Assembly (NCBI GenBank): GCA_025602905.1 | Contig: JAHLKI010000006.1 | Location: forward strand, 744,001 to 808,000 | Length of the DNA stretch: 64,000 nt | Reading direction: 5' to 3' | From: Phlyctochytrium arcticum | Lineage: Eukaryota; Chytridiomycota; Chytridiomycetes; Chytridiales; Chytridiaceae | Shown: positions 17,139 through 48,680 of the stretch, piece by piece | Position numbering within the stretch: position 1 is the stretch's first letter | How the letters are laid out: every line of letters begins with the position of its first letter | The notes under the pieces: generated by a model | What the model was told of the DNA's origin: nothing | What the model saw: the letters and a program-made list of their open reading frames with translations, nothing else | Database searches by the model: none | Made by a program: the position numbers and the translations under genes

Positions 17139-19386
17139 CTCAGCGCAACCCAAGATTTTGGCGCCAAAAATCTACATAAGCAATGTCCGACAGCCCGAAC
17201 CATTTCCGCGAGAATGAAGGGATACCTGAAAGTGACCCAATTTCACCCAAACTTTATATAAAATAACGAAACCGAGTAAACGAGAATGAAGGAAACATAT
17301 CTAAGAAGCTAGGGAAAACGTGGCCGCTACCTCAGACTATATAAAGGATAGAGTTTGACCCGAAAAACCAACAGTCTAAGCGCATCTAAGAATTTGATGG
17401 GGTACGTGAAATGCGTAAGCATGGTGAGATACACGAGCTACTGAGTTGATGTTGAAACTGATGATTCTAAATAGTGTTTGAAAGAAGGTTGTTAATCGCT
17501 CATAGCCGGGAAAAGGACGCAACTCGCGAGACACTGAGCGGTACCTCTGGCTTAATTACCTTCATCATCACCCACAAGTTCCTTGTCAATGTTGTTTGAA
17601 AAATGCTTCAGGGACTTGGTTGCAATCCACTGGTACATTGCTGTACATTGGCAGTTGAAGATCACGCAACCGCAAGCGGTCAGATCTTGCTTCAGCGAGT
17701 CTGATTTTAAGAAATCTCGCACTGTGACTTTTTTGGTCTTACTGGGAGATGGCCCATTCGTAATGTCAGCGACCGGCATTGGAACACTTTGAAACCCTTC
17801 AACATCGATGTGGTTGCCGAGATTTACGAAGGGTTGACGGCGCAGCGGCAAAGGCAGAAGTGACTCCCGGATGGTAGCTAAGACTACCACGGGGATCTCT
17901 TCTGCGCTGGCTGGAGGGAGGTTTACCGTAGTGTTCTCTTTGTTGGTTGTAGCTGACCCGGAAGAGAGTACAGGGTTGGTGACGGGTGGGGCTGGAGCTG
18001 GATGTAGTAAACCTTGTAGTATGGGCTCGTTATACCAACAAGTTACTGTTGTGTTTGTTTATGAATGTGTGTGTGTAGAATTCGACGTTGAGAGTTCTCC
18101 TCCCTCCGTCCGGTGTCCTTTCTCCTTTATTATGCTCTCTCGGAGCGGTAGCACACTCATTGGCCTAGCCGGAATGGGTGTGGCTACTACTGAGAGCAGC
18201 GGGGATTCATGCGGTTCGCCGGAGGCTTAGCTACGCGATCCTCACGTGCTATGGACGGAGCCTACCGCACTCATCACTATGACAACGAGGACATTAACTG
18301 CTTACACAATACAGTTCACACTAATTCCATTACACACTGTCCCTCATAGCATATGGCAAAGATCAAGTGCCGCTTCATTCGATCGTTGTAGAGAACAGAA
18401 TACCGGCTTTCGTCATGTCCGACCATGAGTGACTTGAGCTCATATAGGCGGGGATACTGAGCGACAAATTCATCCATCTCGACGAACGGATGAGCAATGA
18501 AGTTGCGCATTTCTTGGTGAAAATCAGCAAGAGTCGCAGGAGATGGTCCTGATGTTTCAGAAATATCAACATCATCGCCTTCAGGTTCCGGAAGCTCGAA
18601 GTCCGTCATCAAGATGACACTGCCATTCGCAACCGCATCGACAACGTTGTCGTCACTGACTTGAGCGTTCACTGCTGCATCCACCACATTGTCGGTACTG
18701 ATGCTGGCTTCCTGAATGGCCGCAACCTCATTGGGTTGAGCAGGGATGATGGGCCTGACGGCGGGCTGTCGAATGATCCCTGCTTTGTACCAGCGGGTTC
18801 GACACGCATTGCAAGCATACGGATCAGCAGCTCCTGGTCCAACCTGGGGCCTCAAACGTGCCGCCCGAAGGCTGTCAAGTTCAGCCCAAATGAACTTGTG
18901 AAATCGGGTTGAGCTCTTGGTCCCGCAGCCGATGCATCAAGGGTTATAGCCATATTTGTTACCCCTCTTACCGGGTACCTGATCGTACCAGCTAAGTCCG
19001 TCTGAGACCTGGCGCTATAATGGTTGTAATAAGAAGAAGTAAAAGAATGAGTGAACTGACTCCTACAGCCGGATAAAGGCTTGTTTTCGAGATCATGAAG
19101 ATGCCCATCTCACCTTTCTTTTGGGCGGCATCCTGTCACTTGCGCGTCGTAATTCTAAAGATCCTGTGAGAGAGGTTCAGATAAAGTCACACAGCCTCCT
19201 TCTAATACCGGCTGAGGTGAGGTTTGAAAGTTTACTGGAGGTGTATAGTTGAAAAGATCGCGTGGAAATGGACAGATGGTGAACAAATGTTTTGCAATAA
19301 CGTACAGCAAAACGGCGAGGTCGGATCTGCTTACTTAATGCCACAATGACTGTGCCTCCCTATAGTAAAAGTCGGGTTGCGCTGAG
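17139..19386 (-). mobile_element. Internally deleted TIR DNA transposon (copy 2)
   Basis: The element starts CTCAGCGCAACCC on the + strand at 17139 and ends with its inverse complement GGGTTGCGCTGAG at 19386, a 13-bp perfect TIR. It is flanked by a perfect 8-bp duplication, TGCTGTGG, at 17131-17138 and 19387-19394. It matches the full-length element at 32872-36320 along both ends, including 5' leader, first exon, 3' coding end and about 400 bp of 3' sequence, but lacks roughly 600 codons of the middle. It is oriented leftward and could move only if a complete relative supplied transposase. It is inserted just upstream of the frameshifted gene at 15800-17109. Confidence 0.92.
17552..19131 (-). 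pseudogene. Deleted copy of the TIR-transposon protein gene
   Basis: Exon 1 is ATGCCGCCCAAAAGAAAG (MPPKRK, 19131-19114) followed by GTGAG, as in the full-length copy. Exon 2 starts RQVSDGLSWYDQVPGKRGNK and is broken by an in-frame TGA at 18939-18937, where the full-length copy has Gly. It continues with CIGCGTKSSTRFHKF and DPYACNACRTRWYKAG (two Cys pairs) and a 150-residue region similar to the other copy, ending ICYEGQCVMELV. The frame then jumps to the C-terminal 110 residues (ATIRESLLPLPLRRQPF to MYQWIATKSLKHFSNNID). The missing block corresponds to residues of roughly 210-780 in the intact protein, where any catalytic core must lie. Confidence 0.88.
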
Positions 19387-31390: not shown

Positions 31391-31916
31391 TTCTTTTTTT
31401 CCCCTTTTATTTCTAGTCCTTACAACCCTCAGGAATACGTTGGGCAACTTTTCAAGCCGATCCTGTGTGTTTTCGCACCGTGAGAGGCGTTTTGGTGCAC
31501 TGCGACAATCGAGAAATTCAAAATTCCAAGCGCGTTGTAAAGCTGGTGGCACAGTCGCAGGAATCGGCAGGATGTGCTGCGCCGACTTGGAATCTGCCAG
31601 GGAATTTCGTTCCACCCTATATGGAACACCCGAAGCTATTGGGACGGCTGTCCTTTGCTGGGGGTGCGTTTGCACGGACCAAGCAGTGCAGGGACAAAGA
31701 CGTCGAAGAGATGAATAGGACGTCTCATACATGGCACAGCCAGAACTGTCCAAAGAAGCACTTTTTTCTTTTTTCCTGTTCTCAGCTTTTTACACGACAG
31801 ATGGTAACAGATGCACTGTTCCCAATGAGAACCAACGAATGTGCCAATCTGGTGGATACAGCATCCTTTTATTTCTTCAAGTTTTGAAAATTCTGCTTCC
31901 CCAACATGTACAACGT
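31391..31916 (+). other. Gene-free stretch between tRNA-Arg and the island
   Basis: Several overlapping short frames on both strands carry no recognisable motif. No exon pair could be assembled. The last five bases, AACGT at 31912-31916, form the left copy of the direct repeat that flanks the island. Confidence 0.5.
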
Positions 31917-31980
31917 TGACACAGTGCATAACCGCGTACTATGCGCTTCAGCGCATAGTACGCGGTTATGCACTGTGTCA
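31917..31980. repeat. 64-bp palindrome, left copy
   Basis: Two 30-bp arms are exact inverse complements, starting TGACACAGTGCATAACC and ending GGTTATGCACTGTGTCA. The centre is TTCA, so all but two bases can pair. The arms are identical to those of the copy at 48610-48674, whose centre is TGAAG. The centre here reads as the inverse complement of the other with one base lost, so the two copies lie in opposite orientation. It directly abuts the helicase sequence resuming at 31981. Confidence 0.95.
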
Positions 31981-32517
31981 GAGTGCTTGAGCGCTGACTA
32001 CGTTGATCAAGAGGACGCCTCTACTTATCCTGTAGAGTTCCTCAATACTCTGCAGCTTTCGGGACTTCCTCCCCACAAGCTTGAGCTCAAACCTGGCCAG
32101 TTTGTCATGCTCCTCAGGAACCTCAACCCTTCGCGTGGTTTGTCAAACGGAACTCGCTTGCGACTACTTGAGGTGGTATCGCAACGGCTTCTACGCTGCC
32201 AAATCATTGAAGGGCCCTTCACTGGCAATGTGGTTCTTATCCCGCGAATCACACATCGGTGCAGTGATTCACGGATGCCGTCTACTTTGTATCGGCGACA
32301 GTTCCCGGTCACTGGCGCATTTGCCATGACCATCAACAAGTCCCAGGGACAGTCTTTCAACCATGTTGGCGTATATTTGGGCACTCAGGTCTTCACCCAT
32401 GGTCAGCTGTATGTGGGTCTTTCGCGAGGTCGTCACCCAGACCAAATTAAAGTTGTGACTGGATCGGAAAATGCGGGCGATGGAGTTCAGAATGTGGTCT
32501 TTTCCGAAATCATCTGA
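31981..32517 (+). pseudogene. C-terminal half of a Helitron PIF1-type helicase
   Basis: The frame resumes at ECLSADYVDQEDASTYPVEF and carries late helicase motifs: LELKPGQFVMLLRNLNPSRG (motif V region), ITHRCSDSRMPSTLYRRQFP, the conserved FAMTINKSQGQSFNHVGVYL, and HGQLYVGLSRGRHPDQIKVV. It stops at 32517. In intact Helitron helicases this piece follows the INRRVVER region, which here lies at 48604, over 16 kb away on the same strand. Upstream the frame runs straight into the palindrome, so there is no start and the fragment cannot be functional alone. Confidence 0.93.
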
Positions 32518-32832
32518 ATTCTTCCTTAAATGTTGGCGATTCTTACTTGAAGTTACCATGTTGGCAATTCTCAGCACATGAAGCTGTATAGTTCCAAAAA
32601 TTAATATCCTGCATGTTTGGGGTTCATGCATTCAACGTCCCCCTGTTACTATACAACACAATGTGTGGGTATGGCTAAGATGATAATAACTTCCATCTTA
32701 AAGCTGAGGGAAATGCAATGACCAAATCAAAGAGATCTACTCGCAAAATAACATAAAGGATGAAAATTGTGATGCATATATGTGGAACATGTATTATGTG
32801 CGTTCGCCATCGTTCTCACGCATAAAGTCGAT

Positions 32833-32865
32833 GCGCGCTGCGAAGCGAGGCGCGCCAACCGCTAG
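32833..32865 (+). other. Candidate Helitron 3' terminus (hairpin plus CTAG)
   Basis: GCGCGC at 32833-32838 pairs with GCGCGC at 32850-32855 around an 11-base loop. Six bases later comes CTAG. Helitrons typically end in a GC-rich hairpin about 10 nt before CTRR. The position, 316-348 bp after the helicase stop, fits. The next base is C rather than the usual T, which weakens the call. The TIR transposon's duplicated target AGCATCAG overlaps this CTAG. Confidence 0.4.
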
Positions 32866-32871
32866 CATCAG

Positions 32872-35800
32872 CTCAGCGCACCCCGGCCTTTAATTAGCAA
32901 ACGGCACAGTCATCATACTATTAGGTAATCCGATCCGACATGCGTGCTCCACCATACGTTTTTCAAAAACATTCGTCCACCATCTGTCCATTTCCCTGCA
33001 AACTTTACGACTAGACACACTCACTAAAACCTCGAAACGAAGCTCAAACGGTATGGGAAGCGTATACTGTGACTTTATCTAGGACTCTACTCACAGCAGC
33101 CTAGAATTCAGACGCGCAATCCACAGTATGCCTCCGAAGCGGAAGGTGATTTGGGCATCTTCATGATCTTGCAAACAAACCTTTATTTCAATATAGTAAT
33201 CGGCTCTCCTTCTTTGTTGACTTTCATTTGTTGTCATCATTATAGCGTCAGGTCGAAGGCGGTCTTGACTGGTTCACTCAGGTCCCGGGAAAAAAGCTTG
33301 GAAAATACTATTACAAACCTGGTTGCATCAGCTGTGGGACCAAAAACTCTGGTCGATTTCACAAACTTCATTGGTCAGAGCTGGATAGACTACAGATGAC
33401 CGGCCTGAGCTTCCAGTTCGGCTTTGGATTCCATTCCCCATATGCTTGCGATGCTTGCCGCAGCCGATGGTACAAGGCCGGCTATTTGGAACCCACTATA
33501 GTCCAGAATCCAGAACAGGACAATGCTGAGCATGTCAATGAAGATGGTGATGGCCATATTGTTATATTGACCGACTTTGACGAGCCCGAGGATGTAGATG
33601 CTGTTGTCGCCACTACATTGCAGGTACCAGATCTCAGTCCTGCCACGATTATCGAGTATCAACAGGCTCTGCGGGATCTGGTCGCTCGCCCTTTTGAAGG
33701 AAACCCTTTCATTGACATGGATGGGTTCATAGCTCAGTATCCACGTGCTTATGAGCTCAAGGCTCTCATCGTCGGTACTTCTGAACAACATTCCGTATTG
33801 TACCAAGATCGCAAAAAAAGATCTATCATCTTTTCCATTTGTTACGACGGGCAGGCCTTGGATCGAAAGTGCGACTACATCAAAAGATATGTTGGCCATC
33901 AGTTTATTACCGCAACACACACGGATCAGAGATTTCTGTCGAGGATGAATCTGTGCTACCATCCGTCCAAGTCGATCACCCGCATCAATGACATTATTGT
34001 GACAGCGCAAGAAAATGTCATTCAAGACATTATGGAAAATGACCCACTCTTGGTTGTCACCATTGATGATTTTCACTGGTGCCAGATTCGGGCTGTGCCA
34101 GACACCTCAAACGCACCCGGAAAGTTTACGAGCGCGAGGACCACCGCGAATTATGCGGTAAAGTTACATAGGACATTGCCACCTCTCCCGCCTGCGATCG
34201 GCGACATTACAGCATCTGTGTTGCAGGACGCTTCGTGGATTCCTTTGGTCATTGACGCTCCCGCAACACAGACATACGCTGAAGTCCGTAAAGGAGAAAT
34301 TTTGTCCAAGAAACTTTACGCGTATAGTATGGCAACCAAGGCCGGATCTCAAAAGGATCTTCATATTATTGGCAGTGACGATAACCCCATGAAGTGCGCC
34401 CTGGATCTGCAGCCGGTCATGGACAACCTCCAGACATTCTTGTCAAAAGTGGGTTATCCTGACAGCACTGGCTCCTTCAACAAGTCCGTCATCCTGGCCG
34501 GCGATTTCTACGTCTGGATGTATGCTACCAAATTGCTAAAATCGCCCAGGTATAGCGCTCTCCAGTCTCACATCTTGCCGGTCCCGGATCTCATGCATGT
34601 AGCCCTTAACTCACAAGAGGCGGTCCTAGTCCATGCTTGGACTATCATTCATCCCCTCTGGGTCGCTGGATATCCGGAGGTGGAAAACACCTCGCCGATC
34701 AACATGCGACCCAAGCGACGGACGGCCATGCTGGCCCTCGCCATGACCGCTTGGCAAGAGTGTCGCCAAGAAATCCTAAAAAGCTATAACTTGCGTGCAG
34801 CCGGTAACTCCCAAGCAACACCGGTACGAAAGGCAATGTTAGACTCGATTATATCGGTGTTTGAAGAACTCATTCCTCTTTCGGTCGACTGCCCATATTT
34901 GCTATCGAGTGGGGACATTGACCAAATCAAGATGTGCCTCAACCGGCTGTTTCCATTGTTTGCTCTTCTGGGGAAGAAAAACTATGTTAATATCATTCTT
35001 TTCCAGCTCGGTCTCTTAGAAAAACTTCCTTCTCATCTTCCAAAAGATGTTGCTATGGCTTTGCTCTTTTCCACCTTCTCAAGTGAAGATTTAGAAGTCT
35101 TTCACTCTGTCCTCCGGGCTGCAATTCGCTTTCAAGATACCAATGAGCAAGTATCCAGGAAAGCCCTGTTGATTACTGCCATGAGGGGTGAGTCTGCCTT
35201 AAGGCAGCTTGCTGCTATGACGGAACGGGAGTTAGAGCTACGTGGTCGACCAGTCTCTCCGATTGACGACGAGGCGGCTACCTCTCGTACGGCCCAATCC
35301 CCTCTAGAAAAGGCAGCGGAAGATGTTGTACCGAGGATGGTTGCTTATCTTCGGGACCTTTTCTCTACTCTCTTCTTATTTTCATTTGATATTATTGGGC
35401 AAACGGCAAAGATGCCTTATGCATCCGCGCTGCCGCATTATAGCCTTGTCATCAAGCCGCTCTCACCATTACAACCCACGCCCCTTTCGTCATTCCCATC
35501 GTCACCTTCATCATCCAGCAACAAGGAGAACCCCGGTGTTGTTGCCCCATCCAGCGACAAGGAGACTCCCGGGGTGGTCGTAGCGACCATTCGGGAATCA
35601 CTTGTGCCATTGCCACTGCGGCGGCAACCGTTCATTAACCTAGGGAATCACATCGATATTCAAAACTGCCAAAGTGTTCCGATGCCACTTTCGAAAATCC
35701 CTCTTGCCGACAGTACAAATGGGAACGGAAAATCCCCCAGCAAGGCCAAAAAAGTCCGAGACTTCCTGAAAGTAGACTCCTTGAAAGAAGATCTTGCTCC

Positions 35801-36320
35801 CTGTGGTTGCATCGTCGCCAATTGCCAATGTAAAGCAATGTACCAATGGATTGCCAACAAGTCCCTTACTCACTTCTCGGCCAACATCGACAAAAATCCG
35901 GTGCGCGATCTTGAAGGTAAGTAAAAGCAACCGTCGTTTCGCGAGCAATATCCTTTATTTCAATGAACGGACGACCTTATCTTTGTTCTTTAACATTACC
36001 AGAGTCATTTTTTTCAACCTCAGTCTGATTGCTCTTTTGGCTGCCGTGTTCTCACCATTTATGTACCCCCGCCAATTTCCTTGAAAATCTTAAGCTGCCT
36101 GTTTTTGGGGCCAAATTCCGTCTGTTATATAGTTCCAAGATAGCGTATACCCCGTATATAGATCTCTAGATATCTTTCTTTCATCACATACTCTCGGTAG
36201 TGTTATTTCATATAAGGTTTTTGGTACTCACTGGTACCAACTCATTGTTCAGGAAATCTTTCGGACTTTCGGACATTTGCTTATGTAAATTTTGGCGGGA
36301 AAATCCCGGGGTGCGCTGAG
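32872..36320 (+). mobile_element. Full-length TIR DNA transposon, superfamily unassigned (copy 1)
   Basis: The element starts CTCAGCGCACCCCGG and ends with the exact inverse complement, a 15-bp TIR. It is flanked by a perfect 8-bp duplication, AGCATCAG, at 32864-32871 and 36321-36328. It is 3,449 bp long, with one two-exon gene covering most of it. The end sequences match the deleted copy at 17139-19386. Eight-bp duplications are made by hAT, P, Zisupton/KDZ and some other superfamilies. The terminal CTCAGCGC does not match the hAT consensus CAGRG placed at the very end. The intact gene and perfect TSD suggest a fairly recent insertion. Confidence 0.93.
33128..35924 (+). CDS. Putative transposase of the CTCAGCGC-TIR element
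   Basis: Exon 1 (33128-33145) encodes only MPPKRK, and exon 2 (33246-35924) the rest, for 898 aa. The same exon 1 and donor (GTGA) recur in the second copy, which supports the unusual model. Two Cys pairs, YKPGCISCGT and PYACDACRSRWYKAG, flank a His-rich segment (GRFHKLHWSEL) and could bind zinc. The central region has acidic motifs that could form an RNase-H-type core: Asp280-281 in LLVVTIDDFHWCQIRAVPD, Asp426 in SVILAGDFYVWMYATKLL, and Glu in FSSEDLEVFHSVLRAA. The C-terminus ends with a Cys-rich APCGCIVANCQCKAMYQWIA. It may belong with the DUF6589 or KDZ-like transposon proteins. I could not confirm this by eye. Confidence 0.8.
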
Positions 36321-36669
36321 AGCATCAGTGTATATTTATTTTAAGGTAGTAGGTTCCTGAGTGTTGGACCAAGGAAAGGATTCGGAACTGGGTGAGGGTA
36401 GGGAAAGAAGGACTTCTAATTAAATTTTCCAAAAAAACCCATCGGATATACAGACGATCGTACTTCCGATGACTGTTTATACCCTGCAAAGGTTCACTCA
36501 CACCTTCTTATAAGCTGTTATTACCGGTAGAGTCTGGTTCCAATGATCTGGCTACTCGTCCTTCATGAACCCGCGAGAGAAGGACTAGAATCGCACGTCC
36601 TTCGAATACAATACTTGCTTGTTTTATACCCCAATTTGCACGCAATGACCATCCGCATATCGGTCCCAT

Positions 36670-36724
36670 TTTTCTGGCTCACATGACCAAAGGTTGGATT
36701 TGGCCGGATTTGCCGGGGGATTTG
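36670..36724 (-). repeat. MULE-TIR-like fragment facing outward, left of the MULE
   Basis: TTCTGGCTCACATGACCAAAGG followed by GGATTTGGCCGG is, on the minus strand, a close match to the inner part of the neighbouring MULE TIR (GCCAAATCCAACCTTTGG and CATGTGACC). It points away from the MULE. The right flank of the MULE (GATTTGGCTGAGACTCAGGCT) is also TIR-like. The MULE therefore appears inserted into an older relative's terminal repeat. Confidence 0.6.
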
Positions 36725-36733
36725 GGGGATTTG

Positions 36734-39700
36734 GGCGGCAACTATATCCAACCTCAGTCTCAGCCAAATCCAACCTTTGGCATGTGACCTGTTTAATTTG
36801 GCCGAATAAGGTCAACTTTTTAGCACAGCCACTGATCTCCGCTCATGTCCGACTATGATATGATAGACATGCATGTAGCATTCCAAACCCCAGCCTAGTA
36901 CATTACCATCTCTCCAAACGTTCACTACAAATACGGTCAGCAATGCTACCACTGTTTCAGGAGGCACTGCAACAAATGCAGAGCATGCTTCAGGAAACAC
37001 TGCAAACAGGCATACAGGCGTTGGAAGGAAGACTACTTAGCAGCATAGACGACCGTCTGGGATCAATCGAAAATAGATTGCAGGCCGGATTCGAGGAGCT
37101 CAGGGCCACTTCTGGCCTTCGGCCTCCTGTTCCAGGCGACGAAGTTGAGGGTGACAATGTGATCCGTGCTCTGGATCTGAACAAATCTGTCAGTCCTGAA
37201 CCAAGTCTTGAAGACCAAGATCGTGTTGTCCTTCAAGCCCAAGCAGACGATACTGACAATGCCACTGAGATCATGGTAGTCGGACAGGAGAGCATACCTA
37301 AAATCGCTGTTGCGGACGATGCGGGCGCGGATAGTAAGTATAAATATACAGAAGGCAATGATCAACCATCTTACAATCACCTCTTTAATTTGCAGGTTGG
37401 ACGCCGCCGTTGCCTCCTAGCGGGCCGTTCGCAACGTACCATGATGCTGAAAGAGCGACAAATCTTTTTGCTTTAGAAAACGGGTTCGCTCTTGGTGTTT
37501 CCAAGACCGTGAAACATCCAGTCTTGGGCGAGCGCACCGAGGTATGGCGCATATGTGCGTGTGGGGGGGAGTATAAGCCCAAGGATGAAGGCATTCCCTT
37601 GAGACCCAGGAAATGCAAGAAAGCGAATTGCTCCTATCGAATGATCTTGTCCTGCCAGGTCACTCAGTGTTCCAACGAAGATGGCACTGTTCAATACCAA
37701 CTCGGTAACTGGACCAGCAGAGTCCCGCCGAAGAATACTACGCATGAAGGACACCCGGCGCTGAACAGAGTAGCTCTGGCGGCGTTTTCTCAGGCACGAA
37801 AGGCAACCCAAACCCCTCAGATCATGGGTGAGGCTCTAGGCTCATTGCTCAGCGGGTCAAAGTTGCGGCACGTCGTGGATGATCTTACCCGACGTTATCC
37901 GGACCTTCTCATTTCCCCTAAAGACATCCAGAATGCTCGAGACAAGGCTATGGAACAACGTCTTGATGGCGAGCTGCCGGTACCTGCTTTATTGAAAGAG
38001 ATGGAGAAGGACGCTGCAGCTAGGGGAATCGTCACGCAAGTAGTCGTGGACAACGAGGATGTGCTAACGCATTTGTTCTTCCAACCTCAAGTGAGTGAAT
38101 TTCTGTGCCTTATTTTAGTGGCGTGTCGAATCTTCACCTAACTTCCCTCCCTTGTTCACAGAGGGAACTCAGCGACATGATGCGGCGGTTTGGAGATGTC
38201 CTAATAATGGATTGCACATATCGTACCAACCGACATAAAATGCCTCTCCTCCACGTGGTTGGTGTTACCGACACGCAGACTTCTTTTTCCGCTGGTTTTA
38301 TGTTGATGATAGCAGAAACGCAGCAAGATTATGAGCTCGCCGTCCAGAAATTGAACGAGCAATTGGACCGACCGCCCGTAGTCGTTGTTATCGACGCGGA
38401 TCCAGCCTTTATGAATGCTGTCAAGGCCATTTGGCCCACTACTAAAATCATCTTGTGTCGCTGGCACATTTGGCAAAATATTGTTACCAATTGCATGAAG
38501 AATTTTAAGGATGCAGATGGGAAACATGATGCGAACGCCTGGGCCAGCTTTAAAAAGTACGTGGTTCCACTTATTGCAGGCGTCATAATTTACTCACCTT
38601 GTTTCCCACGATCGTAATTGCAGAGCTTGGAATAAACTTGAAAGCGCGACAACTGAATCTACTTTCAATGACCAATGGGACTGTGTGAAAGAGATGGTCG
38701 ACGAGGATACGTTTGAATACTTGAAAAAGAATAAATGGTCTCGTCGGCAGTACTGGGCATCGTACATTGTCGACAACTACCAACATTGTGACCTAACGGT
38801 GACCTCCCGGGCCGAAGGAATGCACTGGGCAACTGTAAAGCAGGACGCCACCGCCAATCAAAATATTATGTCTCTTTACGACGTCATCAAAAGAAATACT
38901 GCTCGGACGGTTCGCGAATACCTACGGGGGGCGAATACTGCACAGACACATCCTCCACGGCTCGTGCGCAGCGACGACTTTTTTAAATCAGTGGCAGGAA
39001 AAATCCAGGTACATATTATCACCACTGTTGTAAATGAAAAACGCAAGGCGAAGCGAATCCTGGCAGCCAGGGAAGATCCAGATCGCGTCCTGGAAGAAAC
39101 GACAGTCCTGAATCCCTGTACAACTTTTCACCGTACGGTTCTCGGCATACCGTGTGCGCACGAGATAATTCCCATGATCTCAGGCGACAACCCACGGGCG
39201 CTGAAGCTAGCGGATTTTCGTGAAAGATGGCATCTGCAAGACACACATACAAAAGCCGCTGAAGATGCGCTGCGCATCTCAGATATTCAGCAACCTCCAG
39301 TCCCTAATGCCTCGACTTTCGGAGTCGAAAAACGCGACCACCAGCGCACCAATAAGCGAAGAAAAATTCGTTCTGAAAATGTGGAGGCCGAGATTCGCCG
39401 GGCAGATCGGAACTGTGGCAACTGCGGGGAGGCAGGTCATGTACGGACAAATTGCACCAAACCCCAGGCTTCTGCAAGTGTGTCGCAAACCGTCGGCCAT
39501 GCTTCACCTCCACTAACAGGCGCAGTCACTCTTGAGGAAGGTGGAAATGTTGATCCTGATGTTAATCCGAATATCCTGCCCAACATCATACCTGAAGGGC
39601 TCGCTGTTCTCCCTGCCAGTCGGCGGCTGGTCGCGATCCCAAGAAGGGAACCTCCTGAATGTAGCACTTGCCGCCGCTTAGGTGAAGGAGAGAGAGCAAA

Positions 39701-40231
39701 GGGTCACGCTGCTTCTCACATAGCTTGTCCCAACCGCGGAAAGTAATCAGGTACATACTACTGATGTTGTAGAGGTGGAATATTAAAGCCTAACTTGATT
39801 CAACATAGCTTTTTTCCTTTACCGTTCGCACTATCTAATTATTTAGTATTCCTACATGTCAGATTCCAATATTTTCCCCCACTTAAAGAACATAAATAGC
39901 CCCATCCAGATTTCAAAGTTGCGCATTAGATTCATTATTCCTTACCATGATAATGCGAGCCTGTCTACTATCATGTGTGTGAATCAAACAAATGCTGGTG
40001 GTGAAAAATATGAAAACACAAACACAGTAGTAAAACTCTTGGAAGAGAATGTTTGTTCAATACAAGCCTGATACAAGCTGTGGAAGCTTGAGGATAGAAT
40101 GCAAGAGCCTTCGAGTGCTGCGCGGATATTTGAGCCAATATGGTGAGAATTTAACCTTATTCGGCCAAATTACGCAGGTCACATGCCAAAGGTTGGATTT
40201 GGCTGAGACTGAGGTTGATATAGTTGCCGCC
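36734..40231 (+). mobile_element. MULE (Mutator-like element) with 9-bp target duplication
   Basis: The left end at 36734 begins GGCGGCAACTATAT and the right end at 40231 is its inverse complement. About 85 bp of TIR match with few differences, including CAACCTCAGTCTCAGCCAAA and GGCCGAATAAGGT. GGGGATTTG flanks both sides (36725-36733 and 40232-40240), the 9-bp duplication typical of MULEs. The 3,498-bp element carries one four-exon transposase gene and little else, and appears complete. Confidence 0.93.
36943..39746 (+). CDS. MULE transposase with zinc knuckle
   Basis: Exons 36943-37333, 37396-38090, 38162-38556 and 38624-39746 splice cleanly into 867 aa. A coiled-coil N-terminus (FQEALQQMQSMLQETLQTGI) precedes a FAR1/WRKY-GCM1-like Cys-His region (CKKANCSYRMILS and THEGHPALN). 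The MULE domain has candidate catalytic residues Asp379 (VLIMDCTYRTNRHKMPLL), Asp440/442 (VVVVIDADPAFMNAVKAIWP), and Glu558 (TSRAEGMHWATVK). The family marker CRWHIWQN follows the second Asp. A SWIM-like LGIPCAHEI and a CCHC knuckle CGNCGEAGHVRTNC follow. A second Cys cluster ends the protein. No stops or frameshifts are seen, so it may be active. Confidence 0.93.
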
Positions 40232-40240
40232 GGGGATTTG

Positions 40241-41207
40241 GCTGAGACTCAGGCTGAATAACAATGAGTCAGAAGGCGCAGGGTTCTAATTGCTTACGTT
40301 TCCGTTCACTCGCGCTGGTATTTCGGGGCAAACCCTCAGCGCTATATTTTCTACATTGTCTTGACCAAATGAAAGGCTTTGAGTCTATACTATAAAGTCC
40401 CAATCTAAGAGAGGACAGAGTAATTTTTCGTACACCTATGCCGAAACCTGAATGCGGATTAGGTGGCTGAGAGGTGGATGTAAAGAAACCCCTTTATGTC
40501 CTAGAGGGTCATTTGTCTTTCTTCTACTTCCGCCCCACTGCTCCCATGGCCCACGGGAGAGGTAGGATTTGCACCTATATGGGAGTAGTCTACGATTTCC
40601 CCTGTAATAATTGGAAGATGCACGATATTTACTCCATGAAGGCCGCTGGCTCCACACACCTGGGGATACTGTCGATGAGGACCATCCTCTAGATATTCTT
40701 TGTTTTAACAGACAAAATCCAGAACCTACTCAACTTGTAGTTTTTTTATAGAATGGGCAATTCTGATTCCCAGTACCCGCCCGAGACAATGAATACTGCA
40801 GATGACCAACCCCCAGCGGTGTGGAAAGCGCATATTCGGCGATCAAAAAGCCAAATTATCGAACTCGAAAAAAAAAAGTTGCGACAAGGTAAACAAAAGT
40901 GTCTTGGTGCAACATGTATTCCACGGTTTCATTATAGTCCAAGGAAGAAACTGCACTGTGTTCCAAAAAAAGAATGATAAAGAGCGGGAGCAACCTGCCA
41001 TACAGGAAAGATCTGCGACTTTTACATGCATAGGAAGGATGGCGACCGCGGAAAGCCCACTTTTCCATCCGTCTGGTACTGAAAAGAGCTTAAATCAAAA
41101 GATGCACAAACAATTCACTTCTTTCACTTTATAAGTGAACTGATTGGTCAAAATTCCTGTTACTGACTCCGAGAGAAATTTCACTGACTCCGAGAGAAAT
41201 TTTAATA
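40241..41207 (+). other. Spacer between MULE and receptor gene, with a 20-bp direct repeat
   Basis: Only short unconvincing frames are present, for example 40753-40977 (75 codons, basic, no known motif). Two exact 20-bp copies of ACTGACTCCGAGAGAAATTT lie at 41162-41181 and 41183-41202, immediately before the receptor gene's ATG at 41208. They could be a leader duplication. Confidence 0.5.
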
Positions 41208-43650
41208 ATGTCAACTTCATCTTCTGCGCGAAAGGGTACCACGCAAGTGGAAGATGAGAAGAACCCCATCGGCTCCCCCAATTGGCGGCGTTCGACAGTG
41301 GTCGAAGAGGAGAAGATATCAGACTTAGCAAAAAGTTCGACACATCAGGAGAAAAAGTCGTGGTTTCCGGCTATCCGTCTTCTCATTCTCGCTCCGCTTC
41401 TGGTACTTATCGCCTTGGCGGGAGTCATTGTCCCGGTGGGTATTCGTGCCTAAGAACGGACTTATGCAACTGTTGCAGTTTGCTAACATCGCACATCTCA
41501 TCTTATCAGAACTCGATCATCTTGTCGGGAGCCAGTGGAGAGTCGGTCGGCTATCTTGGGAACAAATACGTGAATGTTGTGCTGACTGATGTGAGTTCAA
41601 GTTGTTGAGAAATTAGGAAGATGGTACTTAGCCCTCTTCGGCTGAATGAATTTCACAGATAAAGGTCAAAGTGGAGAAATCCATTATTCAGACCTTTCCA
41701 ATTGTCTCGTACGTCGCAAGATGGGACAAAGTTCGCACAGCGATGACTACCAGTAAGTTGATAAGCCAACGGTTTTTATATACGGCTCTGCAGCTTGCTG
41801 ACTCTGAATTCCATGAATGTAGACTTTGAAAATCTTGAAAATGAAAGTGATATTATTCCTCAACTAGTTGCCATAAAAGAAGAATACGGTTTGGACACAA
41901 TCGGCTGCTACCAATGCCGCTGGAAACCGGGCTTTGAGTAAGTGACTGCTAGCAAATGTGGTCTCCCCGTACAAACCAAAGCCTTCTCTCGCATCAGGTC
42001 CTCGCCGACTGCCAATGCAACCAGTACCCGCTGTAGTTCGGTCAGAATTCGCAAGATATGTACATTGTCTTTAGTCACATATTAACGGCATATCATGCAG
42101 ATGTACCTTCAGCTTTCCCCTCAGACAAATACCGGTACTGTGCTTTCTATAGGAAGAGAGAGCGGTACGTCAACCTTGACACTGCAATGACACGAGCAGT
42201 TTGCTAATGAATTTGTTTTCCTATACAGTGGATACACTTGTCCAATTTTATACGCTGAATTCCACAAGTGAGCGCATGCGTGTTGGGCTAAACGATTATC
42301 TGAAGCATGACACCCTAAATACTCTAGCATGGATGCCGGATAGTGCTACACCTTTCCTGACCCAAACCGGTAACAGCTACTACAATTACGCCGCCAGATC
42401 AGCATTAGGCTTAGTAACTCCCAAAACCTTGCCTTACTTCACTTGTATGTTGACTGCTCGTTTTGCTGAGAGCAATGTGGTATCTATATTCATTGACTTC
42501 CTGATCTGTAGTGTACAACAATACGGGAACCAAAGTGCAAGTAGCATTCGTGTCGAAATCAGCGTTTGTCCCCAATGAACCCAAGAATAAATACGCTTGC
42601 AGCGCTGGATATCGGATTGATAATAGTTGGAACGCAATACTTCTCGCCGCCAGGCCTACAGACACAGCAGGTAAGGACCAAGTCGATAGAAATTAAATTA
42701 CTTGTCGCGTTCTTACTTTGATGCAGTCGTCGCCTTGTTCGAGCCAACAAAGCTAGCCATCGCCGCCTCCAGCGATATGGTTTTGAATGGCACTGGGATC
42801 ACAATTGTGAACGGCACGGCAACATATGACGTGGCGGAGCCGAAGGAGTTGACATTGGCTCTGCAAGCTTCCATAATCCGTAAATTTGGAACCTTTGCGA
42901 ACATCTCTAAAAGCACAGAGTTTTTCTACTCCGATTCAATTCTCGGCAACGTAGACTGGGTACTAAGAACTGCGTATTTTAGGTGTTTCATCTAGCTGGA
43001 CTTTGACTGATCATCCTTGTGGTAGATCATTAGCTTTACGGTTGCAAGTATCTCTTCCTATCCTGCGGAGAAAGTGCTTCTGGTTGCGGCCATTCCTAGA
43101 TATGAGGTAGCTAAGACGTTTGCTTGCTAATATCAGGGCTCCAGCTAATTGTCGAACCACCTCCTTTTGAAATAGATTTATGGTACTATTGATGCCGCAC
43201 GTCTGCGCAGTATCCGCACGTCAATTGGCATTTCGGTGGCAATGGCTGTTCTCATCAGTCTTGTTTACATTGCTGTGGTTCTGCCCCTTATGAACCTTGC
43301 TAAGGCCATGAAAACATTGACAAAGCTTGATTTTGGAACACTCGAGGAAAGCAATATGTTGAATGAACGTAGCTGGATTTGGGAGGTAAGATACTGATTT
43401 GTTCTCCACAGTCATTGTCCACTGAAGTCGCTTTCATGTTTTTTCCAGTTGCGTAATGTTCAAATAACTTTTGCCACTATGGTCAAAGCATTGTAAGTTC
43501 AGTAACTAACGGATTTGCTTCAATCAAACGACTTTTCAATGACGTACTGCACTTTCTTCCAGCGCTGGCGCTATCAAGAAAAACAAAGTCTTCGTTCAAC
43601 GGACGATGATGAGCAGTGGTGCTCAATCAAGGGACAGCGGTGAGGTGTAA
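41208..43650 (+). CDS. Two-pass Cache-type receptor, output domain missing
   Basis: Thirteen exons join in frame (551 aa): 41208-41435, 41510-41590, 41659-41752, 41823-41937, 41998-42040, 42101-42164, 42229-42444, 42512-42670, 42727-42959, 43026-43106, 43176-43385, 43449-43492, 43563-43650. A charged cytosolic head precedes TM1 (LLILAPLLVLIALAGVIVP). About 370 extracellular residues with N-glycosylation sites follow, then TM2 (ISVAMAVLISLVYIAVVLPL). A HAMP-like linker (LAKAMKTLTKLDFGTLEESN and ITFATMVKAFAGAIKKNK) follows TM2. The layout matches dCache sensors that in zoosporic fungi are joined to class III nucleotide cyclases or kinases. Here translation ends 28 codons after that linker. The final GAGGTGTAAG looks like an intron donor, so downstream exons may have been lost. 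Confidence 0.75.
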
Positions 43651-43889
43651 GCTGTTCCAATTAAATCCACATAAAACGTGTTACTGTTTTGGTCCTTTCA
43701 ATAATGAACGGTTGATTACATTAATGAATTGATGATATCTGAGGGTCCGCAAGAGTTGACCTTCATGCACATCTTTGGAATTGGTTTACCGATTCCGCAC
43801 CAAAAGTTGCATGAGACAATAATGGTTCTTCCTGAGTATATTTGGGAAGCTCAAACAGGATGCTGTCGAAGAGTGCTTATCGAGAGTCT

Positions 43890-44325
43890 CGACTTAGGGT
43901 AATCGACCTCAACTATGACAAGTTTTGACCAGTGCTTTTGATGATCAACCACATGGGAGGTCTCGCGTAGGAAAACCAAAGCCTTGCAAATCTGAAGAGG
44001 TATCGACCAGTGTTCTTGACTATGGTAATCAACCTTTATCCACAAGTGTGCACCAGTGCTTGTTTTGAGGCTCAGTCATTGATGAGATAGTAGGTTAATC
44101 GAAGCCTTTCGGACTCGGGGAGATATCGGCCAAAACGCTTGATTAAGATAATCGACCTCAACTATCACAAGTTTCGTCTAGTGCTTTTGAGGATCAACCA
44201 GATGGAAGTCTCAAGTAGGACATCAAAACCTTGTTGGATCCTGAGGATTTCCATCAACGCTTTTTGAGGCTCAACTGGATGAAAATGCTCGCGTAGAATA
44301 ATCAAAGTCTTGCTGGATCGTGCGC
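43890..44325. repeat. About four degenerate ~120-bp tandem units
   Basis: Recurring pieces are TAATCGACCTCAACTAT.ACAAGTTT, AGTGCTTTTGA.GATCAACCA.ATGG, CTC.CGTAG.A.AATCAAA and CCTTG..GATC. Units start near 43900, 44010, 44130 and 44250 and have diverged strongly. No frame is conserved, so this is decayed non-coding tandem repeat. Confidence 0.55.
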
Positions 44326-44547
44326 CTGCAGGTATGGGAGAGGTGTGTTGAAACCTTCCATGGAATCAGAGAGGGGATGCGCTGGAGAGACGCCTTGAGA
44401 TACGGCTGGCTCGGCAGCGATGAAGCCACGCGTCAGGGAGTAACTCATTAACGCGTCCTTCCGTTTGACGACGACGAGTTTAGTTTTCTCATGGCCGTCC
44501 GCCCTATCTTTTGGTGATGCAATCTATGCTCTGCTGCATCTACAAGA

Positions 44548-45133
44548 TTATTGACCAAGATATGCATATTTGTCCATCACACGCTCAAAATTGATCTTGG
44601 ACTCGACACTCTCATCATCCAGGGCGAAGAAATTGCGGAGTTCAGGGGGTTTAGGTCGAGGCAGACAGAGAATGCCCCCGTCAAACTGGATTTCTGACAT
44701 CTGGTGTTGTGGTCTGAGACTGCGAGGCAGAGGAATTGGAGGAGATCGAATATGCAGAACATGGGGCCGACACCCAACCTGCCATTCTTTTCTAAGTAAT
44801 TCGCATCCAGATAACTTTTCTCCAACAAACGTTCTGAATGAAATGTAATCAGTGAAGAGTTGGTCGGGAATGTGAAACATTGATGTCTGCCCTAACCTGG
44901 GTTGGTAATGACATGTTGAGAGCTATTCTGCTCAAGGCAAAGTACGATGGCAAATCGCCTCTGGCCTTAATAGAGTTCAAGACTGAAAGAAAGCAGGTTT
45001 GCTTCTGCAAATACGTCCCGCTCTCAATAATGGCATCTGCTTTTGAACAATTGCAATAGAGTTTGAAGGAAACCAAGCCGGTGTGTGAATAACCTGTCGT
45101 CCAACTGATCTTCGGGAAAAAGATACCAACCAT
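44548..45133 (-). pseudogene. Fragment of an unidentified gene
   Basis: Two minus-strand pieces look coding: IESGTYLQKQTCFLSVLNSI to LSRIALNMSLPTQ (45133-44897), and ELLRKEWQVGCRPHVLHIRS to FERVMDKYAYLGQ with a stop at 44548. An intron with GTTAGG donor and TTTCATTCAG acceptor could join them, though the phase does not close cleanly. No start fits and no family is recognised. It ends where the inverted repeat at 45138 begins, so it may be a captured gene piece inside a decayed element. Confidence 0.3.
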
Positions 45134-45137
45134 GTGT

Positions 45138-46122
45138 GTTAAACCACAAGCAAACCTTATTGAAAACGTTCTTCAAACTCTCCCACGCCCCCAAAAGGAA
45201 CACACTTGCATTTTATGTACCGCCAACTACACCTCTTATGCATGACTGATGATGGCTCTACTTATGCACAACATCTACAAAGCAATGGTACAACATGAAC
45301 AGAACATTGTGCTGTTATTTCATGCACAACTGGGTCATCTGGAGAATGTTGCTTCTAGGAATCAACTTTGACATCCAAAACTTTTGGGCGTGCAACTTTC
45401 TTACTTTTTTAGGGAATTTTGAGCTTCAAAATTGTCAAGAAGCCAAATGTGACCCAGCTTGCAAAAGGAACATGGGGTGTCATATTAACATTTGAGGGCC
45501 AGAGATGGCAAGAAGACTAACTTGGAAAAAATGCCCAGTCAGCAGCTGTAAGCTAGATAACACAAAAGATGATTACTGCTGTGGCTAATGAAAACTTAAA
45601 TGATTGTCATGATCAAGCTGAGATTGCCCGCTTCTAGGTTGCCCAAATACTGAAATCCGCGGTTGTAACATATTTGCTGATGCATTCAATGTGCGTGGTT
45701 TGATTACTCAGTCCCAAATTCAAGATCCAAAAGCAGTACTCAATCAAGCAATTTGCCATGCTGCCAATAGCCGTGTATCTGCACGAAGGCCCTATTTTTC
45801 AAACTATGACAACCAGCCAAGTCAAAACTGGTTTTTGTGTGGGCATTAGCTGCAATCAAAAGATTTGGACTCTACTATCTGTCAGTAGCTGAACTACATC
45901 ATCCTTGGCTCGGAATTGATTCTGTAGTTCCGGGGGTAGGTGATGAGTGACGATGTGTAGAGCCAGATTTTTCTGAACGGCCAAGCTTTTTGCCCACAAG
46001 TAGAGCCATCATCAGTCCTGCATAAGGGTGTAGATGGTGGTGTGTAAAATGCGAGCGTGTCCCTTTGGGAGTGTGGGAGAGTTTGGAGGACTTTTTCAAT
46101 AAGTTCGGCTTGTGGTTTAACC
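45138..46122. repeat. 985-bp segment bounded by ~125-bp inverted repeats
   Basis: The left arm (45138-45264) begins GTTAAACCACAAGCAAACCT. The right arm (45998-46122) read on the minus strand begins GTTAAACCACAAGCCGAACT. They stay about 80% alike through CTTATTGAAAA, CAAACTCTCCCAC and GACTGATGATGGCTCTACTT. The right arm keeps an open minus-strand frame (VKPQAELIEKVLQTLPHSQR), so the arms may be two inverted copies of a gene fragment. The interior shows no gene. Confidence 0.6.
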
Positions 46123-46171
46123 ACGCCACAATTCTTGAGGCAAGCCAGAAGTTCCAGAAATTTAGAATTGA

Positions 46172-48609
46172 ATGCGGGAAAGGGCCAAAGCTAAACATCA
46201 TTCATTATTCACCTTTCGTAGGTACGGTACTGGTCTGCCGACAGAGCGAAAGTACTTTTACCGAACAGTTCCAAAAAACCCTCGGCAACAACCAGCTCGT
46301 CGACTTCCTCTGGCAATTCCGGTGGATCTACCAACAAGAAATCTTCCTCTACACAGTCACCAGAAGGCACAGGACCGTCCCGACATTGTTGTTCGCGTCT
46401 TTCACATGAAGTTCCAAAACATGTTGGACGACATTGTGAAAAAGAGTGTCTTTGGCAAGGTGCAGGCTTATTGTTACACCGTTGAGTTCCAAAAGCGTGG
46501 CCTTCCTCACACACACCTTTTGGTTTGGTTGGAATCAAAGCCGACCGAGGAGCAGTATGACAGCATGGTATGTGCAGAGATCCCAGATCCCGAAACTCAG
46601 CCCCGACTGTACGCATCCGTTAAGTCACACATGGTGCACGGTCCATGCGGACGCGACAATCCGCAAAATGTCTGCATGGCCGACGGTGCATGCACCAAAA
46701 AGTTCCCAAAGGCTCTCGCTGAAAGTACGACTGTCTCTGACAATGGCTTGATTACGTACCGGCGACGAGGTGGTGGTCCTCGAATCCAAAAACGTGTGCG
46801 AGGTACAGTCGTGGAGCTTGGCAATGAGTGGATCGTTCCATACAACCCGTACTTAACCGGGAAGTATGACTGCCATATCAACGTTGAAATCTGCAACTCG
46901 GTGAGCTCAGTAAAGTACTTACACAAGTACATTTACAAAGGACAGGACCGAGCTGTCCTCGAGGCGGGTGAAGATATTGACGAAATCAGTCAATATCTAG
47001 AAGGGCGATACATTTCCGCCCAGGAAGCCTGCTGGCGCTTGCTCAGCTTTGAAACGTACAGTATTAGCCACAATATCGTTCGGCTTCCAGTGCATCTGCC
47101 TGGTCAGCAGTATGTCACGTTTGATGCGGCTGCCCCTGAAGCTGCCGTAGAGAACAATGAGCGCACTATGCTCACCGAATTCTTCCGTACAAACCAAGAG
47201 CTCCAGCAGCAAGCGGGTGAAAGTCTTAGTTATTGTGAGTTCCCCGAGCACTATCGGTGGAATCAAGGTCCAAAAACTTGGACACGTCGGAAGAGGGCAT
47301 GGAAGGTCGTGGCTCGCATGACCATGGCTCCTCCTGGGAGCGACCGTTTTCACTTGCGTATGCTGTTGAGTCATGTACGGGGGCCGACCTCTTATGAGGA
47401 TCTTCGAACGCACGACGGCGTTTTGTATGAAACGTTCAAAGAGGCAGCGATTGCACGAGGGCTCCTTGAGGATGACACTGAGTATGATACGTGTCTGGAG
47501 GAAGCAACTGTGTCCTCCATGCCATGACAGATCCGCAAGCTGTTTGCCACTATGGTGGCCTTCAGTGAACCAGCAGACGTTGCAAGGCTGTTTCATAAGC
47601 ATTATGAAGCAATGGCCGAGGATCAGAGGGACATGTCGGAAGGTCAACGGCAATTCCGCGTCATTGCAGACTTGGACCGGCTTTTGGAGCCGTTCAATAT
47701 GCGCATGTCGACTTGGATTAACCTAGAAGAGTTCTACTCCGAAGGGTTCGATCCGAACGACGATGGGGCTCAAGAAGATTTAAACCAAAACGACCAAGAC
47801 ACCGATATCGCTCAGCTCATTGACACTTTGAATGTCGATCAGAGATCGGTATTCGAGAGGGTGGCGGACTCTGTCCGTCAAGGTGCAACCTCTCAGGAGC
47901 GAGTCTTCTTCTTGGATGGGCCCGGCGGGACCGGCAAGACATACGTCTACAATACGCTGTTGCGCGCAATGCGTTCAGAGGGCTTCCGGTGTTTGGCAAT
48001 GGCCAGCAGTGGTATTGCTGCGTGTCTTCTTCATGACGGAAGAACGGCACATTCAACTCTCGCTATTCCGTTGGAGCTTAACGAGACAAGTACATGTCAC
48101 TTCGGCCCTCGATCTGCAATTGCCAACACCCTTCGGGAGGTTGACTTGATCATCTGGGACGAGGCACCCATGGCTTCTCGATATGCGATTGAAGCGGTTG
48201 ACCGTACTATTCGGGATGCACTTGATGTCAACAAGCCATTTGGTGGCAAAGTGATGCTCTTTGGAGGTGACTTCAGGCAAATTTTGCCAGTTGTTCTACA
48301 AGGTGGTCGGTCGGCAACAGTTGGGCGCTGTTTTAAAAAGTCACCCCTTTGGCGTCACGTTACAACGATGAATTTGACCATCAATATGCGTCTGCAGTCA
48401 CGGCCAGACTTCCAGCAGTTTCTACTTGATGTTGGTGAGGGCAGAAACGGTGCGCGTGTGAACATTGAGGAATCCATGGTTGCTACAGGGAACAACCTGG
48501 ATGGTTTGATCGATGACATCTTTGCGGACGGCGCTGACTTTGAAGATCGTGTGATCCTCGCTGTCAAGAATGACGACGCTCAGATGATCAATCGTAGGGT
48601 GGTAGAACG
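46172..48609 (+). pseudogene. N-terminal and core half of a Helitron Rep/PIF1 helicase
   Basis: The conserved region begins near 46361 (DRPDIVVRVFHMKFQNMLDD). The Rep HUH motif is in YTVEFQKRGLPHTHLLVWLE. Helitron-typical sequence follows (HMVHGPCG, CTKKFPK, YIYKGQDRA, FETYSISHNIVRLPVHLPGQ). The PIF1 domain has Walker A GPGGTGKTYVYN, motif II IIWDEAPMA, and GGDFRQILPVV. A TGA at 47525-47527 interrupts the frame once, exactly in frame with both sides. The N-terminus before the Rep domain is scrambled. The frame ends INRRVVER at 48609, directly against the right palindrome; the remainder of the protein is at 31981-32517. Confidence 0.93.
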
Positions 48610-48674
48610 TGACACAGTGCATAACCGCGTACTATGCGCTGAAGGCGCATAGTACGCGGTTATGCACTGTGTCA
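48610..48674. repeat. 65-bp palindrome, right copy
   Basis: Arms of 30 bp are identical to those at 31917-31980, with centre TGAAG. Left of it lies the truncated helicase (GTAGAACG), right of it AACGTT and non-Helitron sequence. AACG also occurs on both sides of this copy alone, so a solo insertion with a 4-bp duplication is an alternative to the large-island reading. Confidence 0.95.
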
Positions 48675-48680
48675 AACGTT

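Follow-up and report, generated by a model that had tools for sequence, protein, structure and literature searches.

A 16.8-kb island (31917-48674) in the 64,000-nt stretch of Phlyctochytrium arcticum DNA that we analysed (the window; contig JAHLKI010000006.1, assembly GCA_025602905.1) is a non-autonomous insertion. It has the termini of large integrase elements, which may be relatives of polinton-like viruses (PLVs), and its content is circularly permuted. Relative to its source, the C-half of a Helitron helicase gene lies at the left end and the N-half at the right, with 19 bp missing between them. Integrase-type insertion of the island is well supported. We lean toward the view that a palindrome-ended element lay within a Helitron, itself part of a circle or tandem array, and that an integrase used its ends from the wrong side, inserting palindrome-C...N-palindrome at AACGT.

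Structure of the island

The features of the island are collected in Table 1.

Table 1. Features of the island and its borders (window coordinates).
Feature	Position	Strand	Basis
Target-site duplication, left copy, 5 bp AACGT	31912..31916		Sequence; joined-flank search
Left terminal palindrome, 64 nt, arms 30, loop TTCA, TG...CA ends	31917..31980		Sequence, family members
Helitron 3' part, helicase C-half (Pif1 2B, UvrD C) to CTAG 3' end	31981..32865	+	96-99% to Helitron copies
Separate transposon, 8-bp duplication AGCATCAG, at Helitron end	32872..36320	+	ORF weakly like DUF6589, E 0.11, below cut-off
MULE element with terminal inverted repeats, ends approximate	36735..40230	+	Domain match, repeats
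Nearly all single-copy DNA; one 73% match over 44716-45012	40231..45137		Genome comparison
MITE-like unit, 62-nt inverted repeats, 85% complementary	45138..46121		Repeats
184-bp fragment, 99% identical to C40:181058-181242, candidate circle junction	46173..46356	+	Sequence comparison
Helitron middle part, Rep (end of Helitron_like_N) and PIF1 helicase N/core half	46357..48609	+	Domain matches, copy comparison
Right terminal palindrome, 65 nt, arms 30, loop TGAAG	48610..48674		Sequence
Target-site duplication, right copy, 5 bp AACGT	48675..48679		Sequence; joined-flank search

All four 30-nt arms of the two terminal palindromes are identical. A 29-mer from the arm, searched with up to three mismatches, matches four times in the window, a number reached by 0 of 100 window shuffles, and the arm has no occurrence outside the window at the same tolerance in a genome search. 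Both palindromes have TGACA ends and carry the core GTGCATA...TATGCAC and the TG...CA ends of the family described below. Both outer flanks are single-copy and share their terminal 5 bp; when joined, they overlap by 6 bp (AACGTT). These coordinates and identical arms bear out what a sequence-only reading had described, namely two palindrome caps abutting helicase halves on the plus strand, with AACGT on both outer flanks. The same reading had proposed a search for an empty site with a single AACGT, and the joined-flank search found neither such a site nor a second locus for the flanks in the genome.

Between the Helitron halves, the 184-bp fragment is fused to the Helitron through a 2-bp microhomology (TC). 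Four ORFs from the mostly single-copy segment gave no Pfam matches. The interior single-copy DNA has no duplicate elsewhere in the genome, which fits a move rather than a copy.

The split Helitron

Compared with related copies, both Helitron halves have the same closest long match, a copy on C20 (99.1-99.4% and 99.2%). Among 15 related loci, six are oriented so that the N/C junction shows. Five of them (L006, L010, L014, L015 and L020) have the N and C sequences separated by the identical 19 bp, TCTGCCTGGTGACTTCCGC, and the sixth (L011) has the same spacer with one base changed. Match coordinates give equal spacing in further copies, with the exception of C25:228552/228575, where the C-half match begins 45 bases later. 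The breakpoints, earlier placed within a few codons of each other, are therefore exactly 19 bp apart in intact copies.

Homology starts only at 46357, so the initial 1.46 kb of the family sequence is missing and the Helitron is not whole; no complete Helitron circle is implied. When we asked whether the element is complete, the CTAG end at 32865 was present, the 5' part was absent and the gene order was permuted. The claim that one Helitron gene is split between the two ends therefore holds for the single family and the closely matching breakpoints, but not for an entire element.

We rejected the idea that the palindrome is part of the Helitron, since it is absent from all six copies in which the junction shows and its arm (up to three mismatches) is confined to the window. 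It is instead the terminal repeat of another, integrase-encoding family. For this reason we prefer integrase-type transposition between two palindromic ends to a Helitron circle that opened at a palindrome of its own. The earlier proposal of a circle opened at a palindrome within the helicase gene retains its permuted map and insertion-like repeat; the palindrome, however, is foreign to the Helitron, and the circle itself is a conjecture drawn from the map.

The two sides of the helicase break share no 5-bp duplication (GAACG on the N side versus GAGTG on the C side, with 19 bp lost), so either the first insertion was not clean or a deletion came after it. AACGT also occurs at the inner edge of the right palindrome (GAACG followed by a T of ambiguous assignment), there as part of the native Helitron sequence. 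A Helitron on C46 with a 6.9-kb interruption was rejected as a second case, as it keeps the native 19-bp stretch with one base changed. Its insert sits further on, at ATCAG in the C-half, has the same sequence near its two ends and contains an integrase hit; it looks like an LTR element unrelated to the island.

A family of paired palindromes

The earlier reading had also called for a search for other palindrome-capped segments. The palindrome pattern has 80 matches genome-wide, compared to one for a reversed-pattern control. Family palindromes are 47-69 bp long in the copies read and are often paired, 4.6-39 kb apart. From the 50 of 80 places listed, one of which (C4:1142488) is by eye no palindrome, we chose 13 pairs by hand as neighbours no more than 40 kb apart. 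This selection leaves out C5:1128751/1134695 (5.9 kb apart, unlike stems) and shorter pairs such as C25:139557/141242 (1.7 kb, no integrase hit between).

Exact 5-bp target-site duplications flank five of the seven pairs read: AACGT in the window, ACAGA on C7, GACAT on C15 and TGCCG on both C1 and C3. The C3 pair shares its outer flanks with the C1 pair, and because these flanks are identical the count becomes four exact duplications in six independent pairs (approximately 1.4e-11, calculated by hand with a chance of 1 in 1024 each). At C4:900748/925826 the duplication matches in four of five bases. C6:103490/127695 has no duplication, and its outer flanks form an inverted repeat.

Inner stems are the same or similar in 11 of the 13 pairs. 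The two pairs with unlike stems are C2:1321706/1340488 and C2:456730/480830, and the latter holds two integrase hits and so may be two elements. In most pairs the two ends have a common inner stem, and this stem varies from island to island. Such a pattern suggests that a single palindrome gave rise to both ends of a pair, by way of either a hairpin-ended intermediate or a circle with one palindrome. The C1 and C3 islands have, of the pairs read, the inner stems most like those of the window. Since their inner sequences differ between the two ends, the palindrome is the entire terminal repeat, as in the window island. Beyond this genome, exact palindrome patterns found no match in viral_contigs or genome_contigs, where some of the patterns used on the former and all of those used on the latter begin with TGTCA and would miss the TGACA ends of the window.

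Integrase matches within the pairs

A retroviral-type integrase (rve) match lies inside nine of the 13 pairs, in one case scoring under the curated cut-off, with 150 of 222 candidates scored. Random placement on the same contigs gave a mean of 2.0 pairs with rve and reached nine in 0 of 20,000 trials; this control ignores transposon clustering, counts hits that include LTR-type integrases and uses rough guesses for the lengths of C13 and C18. Among the candidates scored, the rve-free pairs are the window island, C4:348975-373837, C13:607560-626662 and the 4.6-kb C7 pair. The scanned ORFs of the window island have no rve match, so it is at most a non-autonomous member of the family.

We read an integrase ORF from the C1 island. 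Scanning this single ORF against Pfam at E 0.001 gave no match to the H2C2 zinc finger, a feature of Ginger2/TDD transposases. It has three protein relatives, and exact peptide words found none in viral_contigs. We also considered other owners for the palindromes. The DUF6589-like element was rejected, as all of its matches listed besides the window copy fall outside the 13 pairs (82 rows, with 40 of 120 candidates scored). The islands were likewise rejected as true Polintons: the 14 genome hits to protein-primed PolB (PF03175) all lie outside the 13 pairs.

Proposed mechanism and alternatives

The circle or array is our inference, and so is the inside-out step. A palindrome-ended element would have entered the helicase gene of a Helitron copy truncated at its 5' end, this copy lying either in a tandem array or on an extrachromosomal circle. 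An integrase acting in trans would then pair the two outward-facing ends, which it could do because each palindromic end reads alike from either side. Everything but the original element (palindrome-C-half...N-half-palindrome) would move in this "inside-out," or reversed-ends, transposition, and the target would be the single-copy AACGT site on contig C6. Several observations count against this reading: no circle, tandem array or donor site was found, the helicase break shows no 5-bp duplication, the island has no scored rve hit, the C6:103490/127695 pair lacks a duplication, and the AACGT at the inner edge of the right palindrome is unaccounted for. As a general principle, which we hold more doubtfully, direction-blind palindromic ends might let an integrase take the outside of an element for its inside and so move host DNA in trans, in this case a Helitron-bearing circular segment.

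The map expected from a circle also results from a tandem array or from two Helitron copies. Two copies in the same orientation, each with a palindrome-family element near the same helicase site, could have let the intervening segment move as a macrotransposon, as known for maize Ac (PMC9910405, excerpt). A circle would be unnecessary, and GAACG and GAGTG, as possible halves of two duplications, would explain the 19-bp gap. We nevertheless find this unlikely. It requires either an inherited insertion or two insertions approximately 19 bp apart in adjacent copies; one and the same Helitron copy is the closest match of both halves; and since the arm is missing from the rest of the genome, no other Helitron copy has it. 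Alternatively, a lone palindrome already present at the chromosomal AACGT site could have undergone homologous recombination with another lone palindrome carried by a circle (N-palindrome-C). This would also produce the map, with the outer AACGT copies left by an older insertion. Such an event seems improbable to us, as it demands a crossover inside a palindrome of about 64 bp and a solo palindrome at both places, and the genome holds no further arm within three mismatches.

Hairpins could also have misled the assembler into joining unrelated pieces, but these palindromes are just 64-65 bp long and, on a 1.28-Mb contig, are at least some 488 kb away from either end. Other loci show the same family with duplications, and the single-copy flanks both end in the same 5 bp, making an artefact very improbable. 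Finally, partial Helitron copies are common in the genome, and two unrelated truncated copies might end at palindromes by chance. We give this almost no credence in view of the complementary breakpoints within 19 bp, the matching palindromes and the outer duplication.

If the inside-out reading is true, palindromic ends offer an integrase element, perhaps of viral descent, a simple route to mobilise arbitrary host DNA without first enclosing it. Matched end palindromes around a permuted interior would then be a readable signature of circle-to-chromosome transfers in fungal genomes, and the island-specific inner stems provide a direct test of how both ends get copied.

Comparison with known systems

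Like Polintons/Mavericks and PLVs, the palindrome family combines a retroviral-type integrase, terminal inverted repeats and a 5-bp duplication, and most pairs span 16-39 kb. The chytrid Spizellomyces punctatus and oomycetes are reported to contain PLVs, some of which have terminal inverted repeats and three of which are flanked by 5-7-bp duplications (PMC7805220, excerpt). Unlike these elements, the pairs lack PF03175 (0 of 13) and the window island has no scored integrase match. The ends of our family are near-perfect palindromes, of which the excerpt of PMC7805220 makes no mention for PLVs.

Ginger2/TDD elements also have an integrase-type transposase, and many of our palindromes start with TGTCA, fitting their TGTNR terminus (PMC2836005, excerpt). 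According to the same excerpt, TDD-4/5 produce 5-bp duplications, and four Ginger2 elements are shorter than 4 kb, compared to the larger palindrome pairs. The TGACA ends of the window fall outside TGTNR, unlike the TGTCA of several sister islands.

In Tn10 inside-out transposition, the inner ends are used and the rest of a circular molecule moves. The inner ends are at work as in our proposed step; the Tn10 process is bacterial and needs two IS10 copies. Reintegrated extrachromosomal circular DNA gives circular permutation at its new site, as in the cattle KIT translocations. To our knowledge, no transposon ends are involved there, unlike the family-specific ends and 5-bp duplication seen here. 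The ends of maize Ac/Ds are directional, whereas those of the island are palindromic and the enzyme is integrase-type. As in the inside-out reading, Ac/Ds can use separate or wrongly oriented termini so that the host DNA between them moves, and it leaves a duplication of 8 bp, unlike the palindrome family (PMC9910405, excerpt).

Palindromes and Helitron halves

The sequence-only reading had placed a palindrome at each end of the island (window 31917-48674); both are present there (31917-31980 and 48610-48674), with identical 30-nt arms. The left loop is TTCA and the right TGAAG. AACGT occurs on three of the four outer and inner sides, where two sides suffice for a duplication. Also borne out are the two parts of a helicase gene, both on the + strand: directly inside the left palindrome, a 3' part (C-half) carrying a Pif1 2B domain and a UvrD C-terminal domain and, ending at the right one, an N/core half with Helitron_like_N and PIF1 domains. 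Full-length Helitron copies start with TC...TACTACTAAAA and end with CTAG; the C-half extends to the CTAG end at 32865, and the N side begins at 46357, 1.46 kb into the Helitron.

Whole-genome searches, window included, gave 22 DNA matches for 31981-32700 and 34 for 46000-48609, a few of the latter falling on the 357 non-Helitron bases in that query. The junction is visible at 6 of the 15 relative loci listed. Between the end of the window N-half and the start of the C-half, these loci carry 19 bp (TCTGCCTGGTGACTTCCGC), identical at five and with one base changed at the sixth. The closest long match to both halves, out of 8 oriented loci and a further 13 that partly overlap, is a copy on contig C20 (N side, 99.4% over 486 nt and 99.1% over 1699 nt; C side, 99.2% over 829 nt), so a single parent copy is favored, not proved, by sequence similarity. 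A C1 copy is closer on one shorter stretch of 633 nt (99.7%). Window positions 18003-18335 are 93% identical to a short insertion within the C1 Helitron copy.

Content between the halves

From left to right, the Helitron 3' part is followed by a transposon whose ORF only weakly resembles DUF6589, and then by a MULE; next come about 5 kb of DNA that is almost entirely single-copy, a MITE-like unit and a 184-bp piece. The transposon next to the Helitron 3' part has an 8-bp duplication (AGCATCAG) and carries CTCAGCGCACCCCGG as its terminal inverted repeat. Three further copies match it at 99-100% over 3.4 kb, and there are many that are more diverged. The C40 source of the 184-bp piece looks like a coding stretch.

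Coordinates of island components and other loci
Feature	Location	Size	Remarks
Transposon with ORF weakly like DUF6589	window 32872-36320	3.45 kb	inserted at Helitron end
184-bp fragment	window 46173-46356	184 bp	99% identical to C40:181058-181242; joined to Helitron with 2 shared bases
Palindrome-ended island	C4:900748-925873
Palindrome-ended island	C15:210298-237072
rve/DNA polymerase B locus	C25:407504-412094
rve/DNA polymerase B locus	C54:9347-13937
rve/DNA polymerase B locus	C6:702769-707257
rve/DNA polymerase B locus	C26:396506-401019
rve/DNA polymerase B locus	C7:987073-991555

A family of palindrome-ended islands

Searched genome-wide with up to 3 mismatches, the window arm occurs only in the window; a shorter seed with 2 mismatches found 64-bp palindromes on C4 and C5. 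The core pattern occurs at 80 places, against 1 for the reversed-pattern control. Inspected by eye, 49 of the 50 places listed are palindromic, and from these 50 we selected 13 pairs, spaced 4.6-39 kb apart. Inner stems are the same or similar between mates in 11 of the 13 and vary from island to island.

Junctions were read in seven pairs, the window counted. Exact 5-bp duplications flank the window (AACGT), C7 (ACAGA), C15 (GACAT), C1 and C3 (both TGCCG) pairs, the last two scored once for their common outer flanks. At C4:900748/925826 the duplication differs by one base (TGGTG/TTGTG); C6:103490/127695 has no 5-bp duplication at its junctions, and its outer flanks form an inverted repeat. 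The C1 and C3 islands (C1:1308264-1324032, C3:1361095-1387125) differ in size and have identical outer flanks and target-site duplication, reflecting a target used twice or else duplication of the locus.

An inverted repeat extends inward past the palindrome in the C7, C6, C15 and C4 pairs and not in C1 or C3, the two that have the most window-like inner stems of the pairs read. End-palindrome loops are mutually inverted in the window and C7 and direct in C1 and C3, a difference for which hairpin-mediated flipping of the palindromes would account. At locus L023 (palindrome core at 2852; C1:451271), the right flank would encode residues resembling, by eye, the window MULE protein; probably a 3.1-kb element sits within a MULE there and this palindrome forms one of its ends.

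Insertion and the permuted interior

The outer ends of the island, with TG...CA, a 5-bp duplication and a family palindrome, make integrase-type insertion very probable. Its permuted interior requires one of three sources, circular DNA, a tandem array or a pair of Helitron copies, and none of the three was observed. If there was a circle, the fusion of the 184-bp piece to the Helitron is the candidate closing point; that join in the circular map is otherwise unaccounted for. The simplest link between integrase-type ends and a permuted interior would be palindromic ends that do not distinguish inside from outside: an element within the helicase gene could then mobilize the surrounding DNA in place of itself. 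The 19 bp lost at the helicase break, with no matching 5-mers on its two sides, show that the first insertion into the gene was imperfect or was trimmed afterwards. In the portions available of the open-license literature (including PMC12730594, PMC2836005, PMC9910405 and PMC7805220), we found neither a description of chytrid integrase elements with palindromic ends nor one of such elements moving inside out.

Integrase matches and possible relatives

At least one match to the retroviral-type integrase domain (rve) lies inside 9 of the 13 pairs, among 150 scored matches of 222 candidates that include LTR-type integrases; one of the nine rests on C3:1377979, below the curated cut-off. Random placement on the same contigs, a control that leaves out transposon clustering, gave a mean of 2.0 pairs and never 9 in 20000 trials. 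None of the 150 scored matches (222 candidates) falls in the window, C4:348975-373837, C7 or C13 pairs. An ORF lying in the C1 island has matches to both rve and retroviral integrases; its best relative, 36% identical, carries PF00665 and PF00385 (a chromodomain). A chytrid-like host is indicated by one window protein, whose named relatives belong to the chytrids Rhizophlyctis, Boothiomyces, Borealophlyctis, Kappamyces and Phlyctochytrium.

Polinton-like viruses with terminal inverted repeats, 5-7-bp duplications and an integrase of the rve or tyrosine type have been reported from a chytrid and from oomycetes (PMC7805220), so the islands may be related to them. DNA polymerase B has 14 matches in the genome, none inside the 13 pairs. 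Elsewhere, outside these pairs, rve and DNA polymerase B matches lie about 4 kb apart in an arrangement like that of true Polintons (Table).
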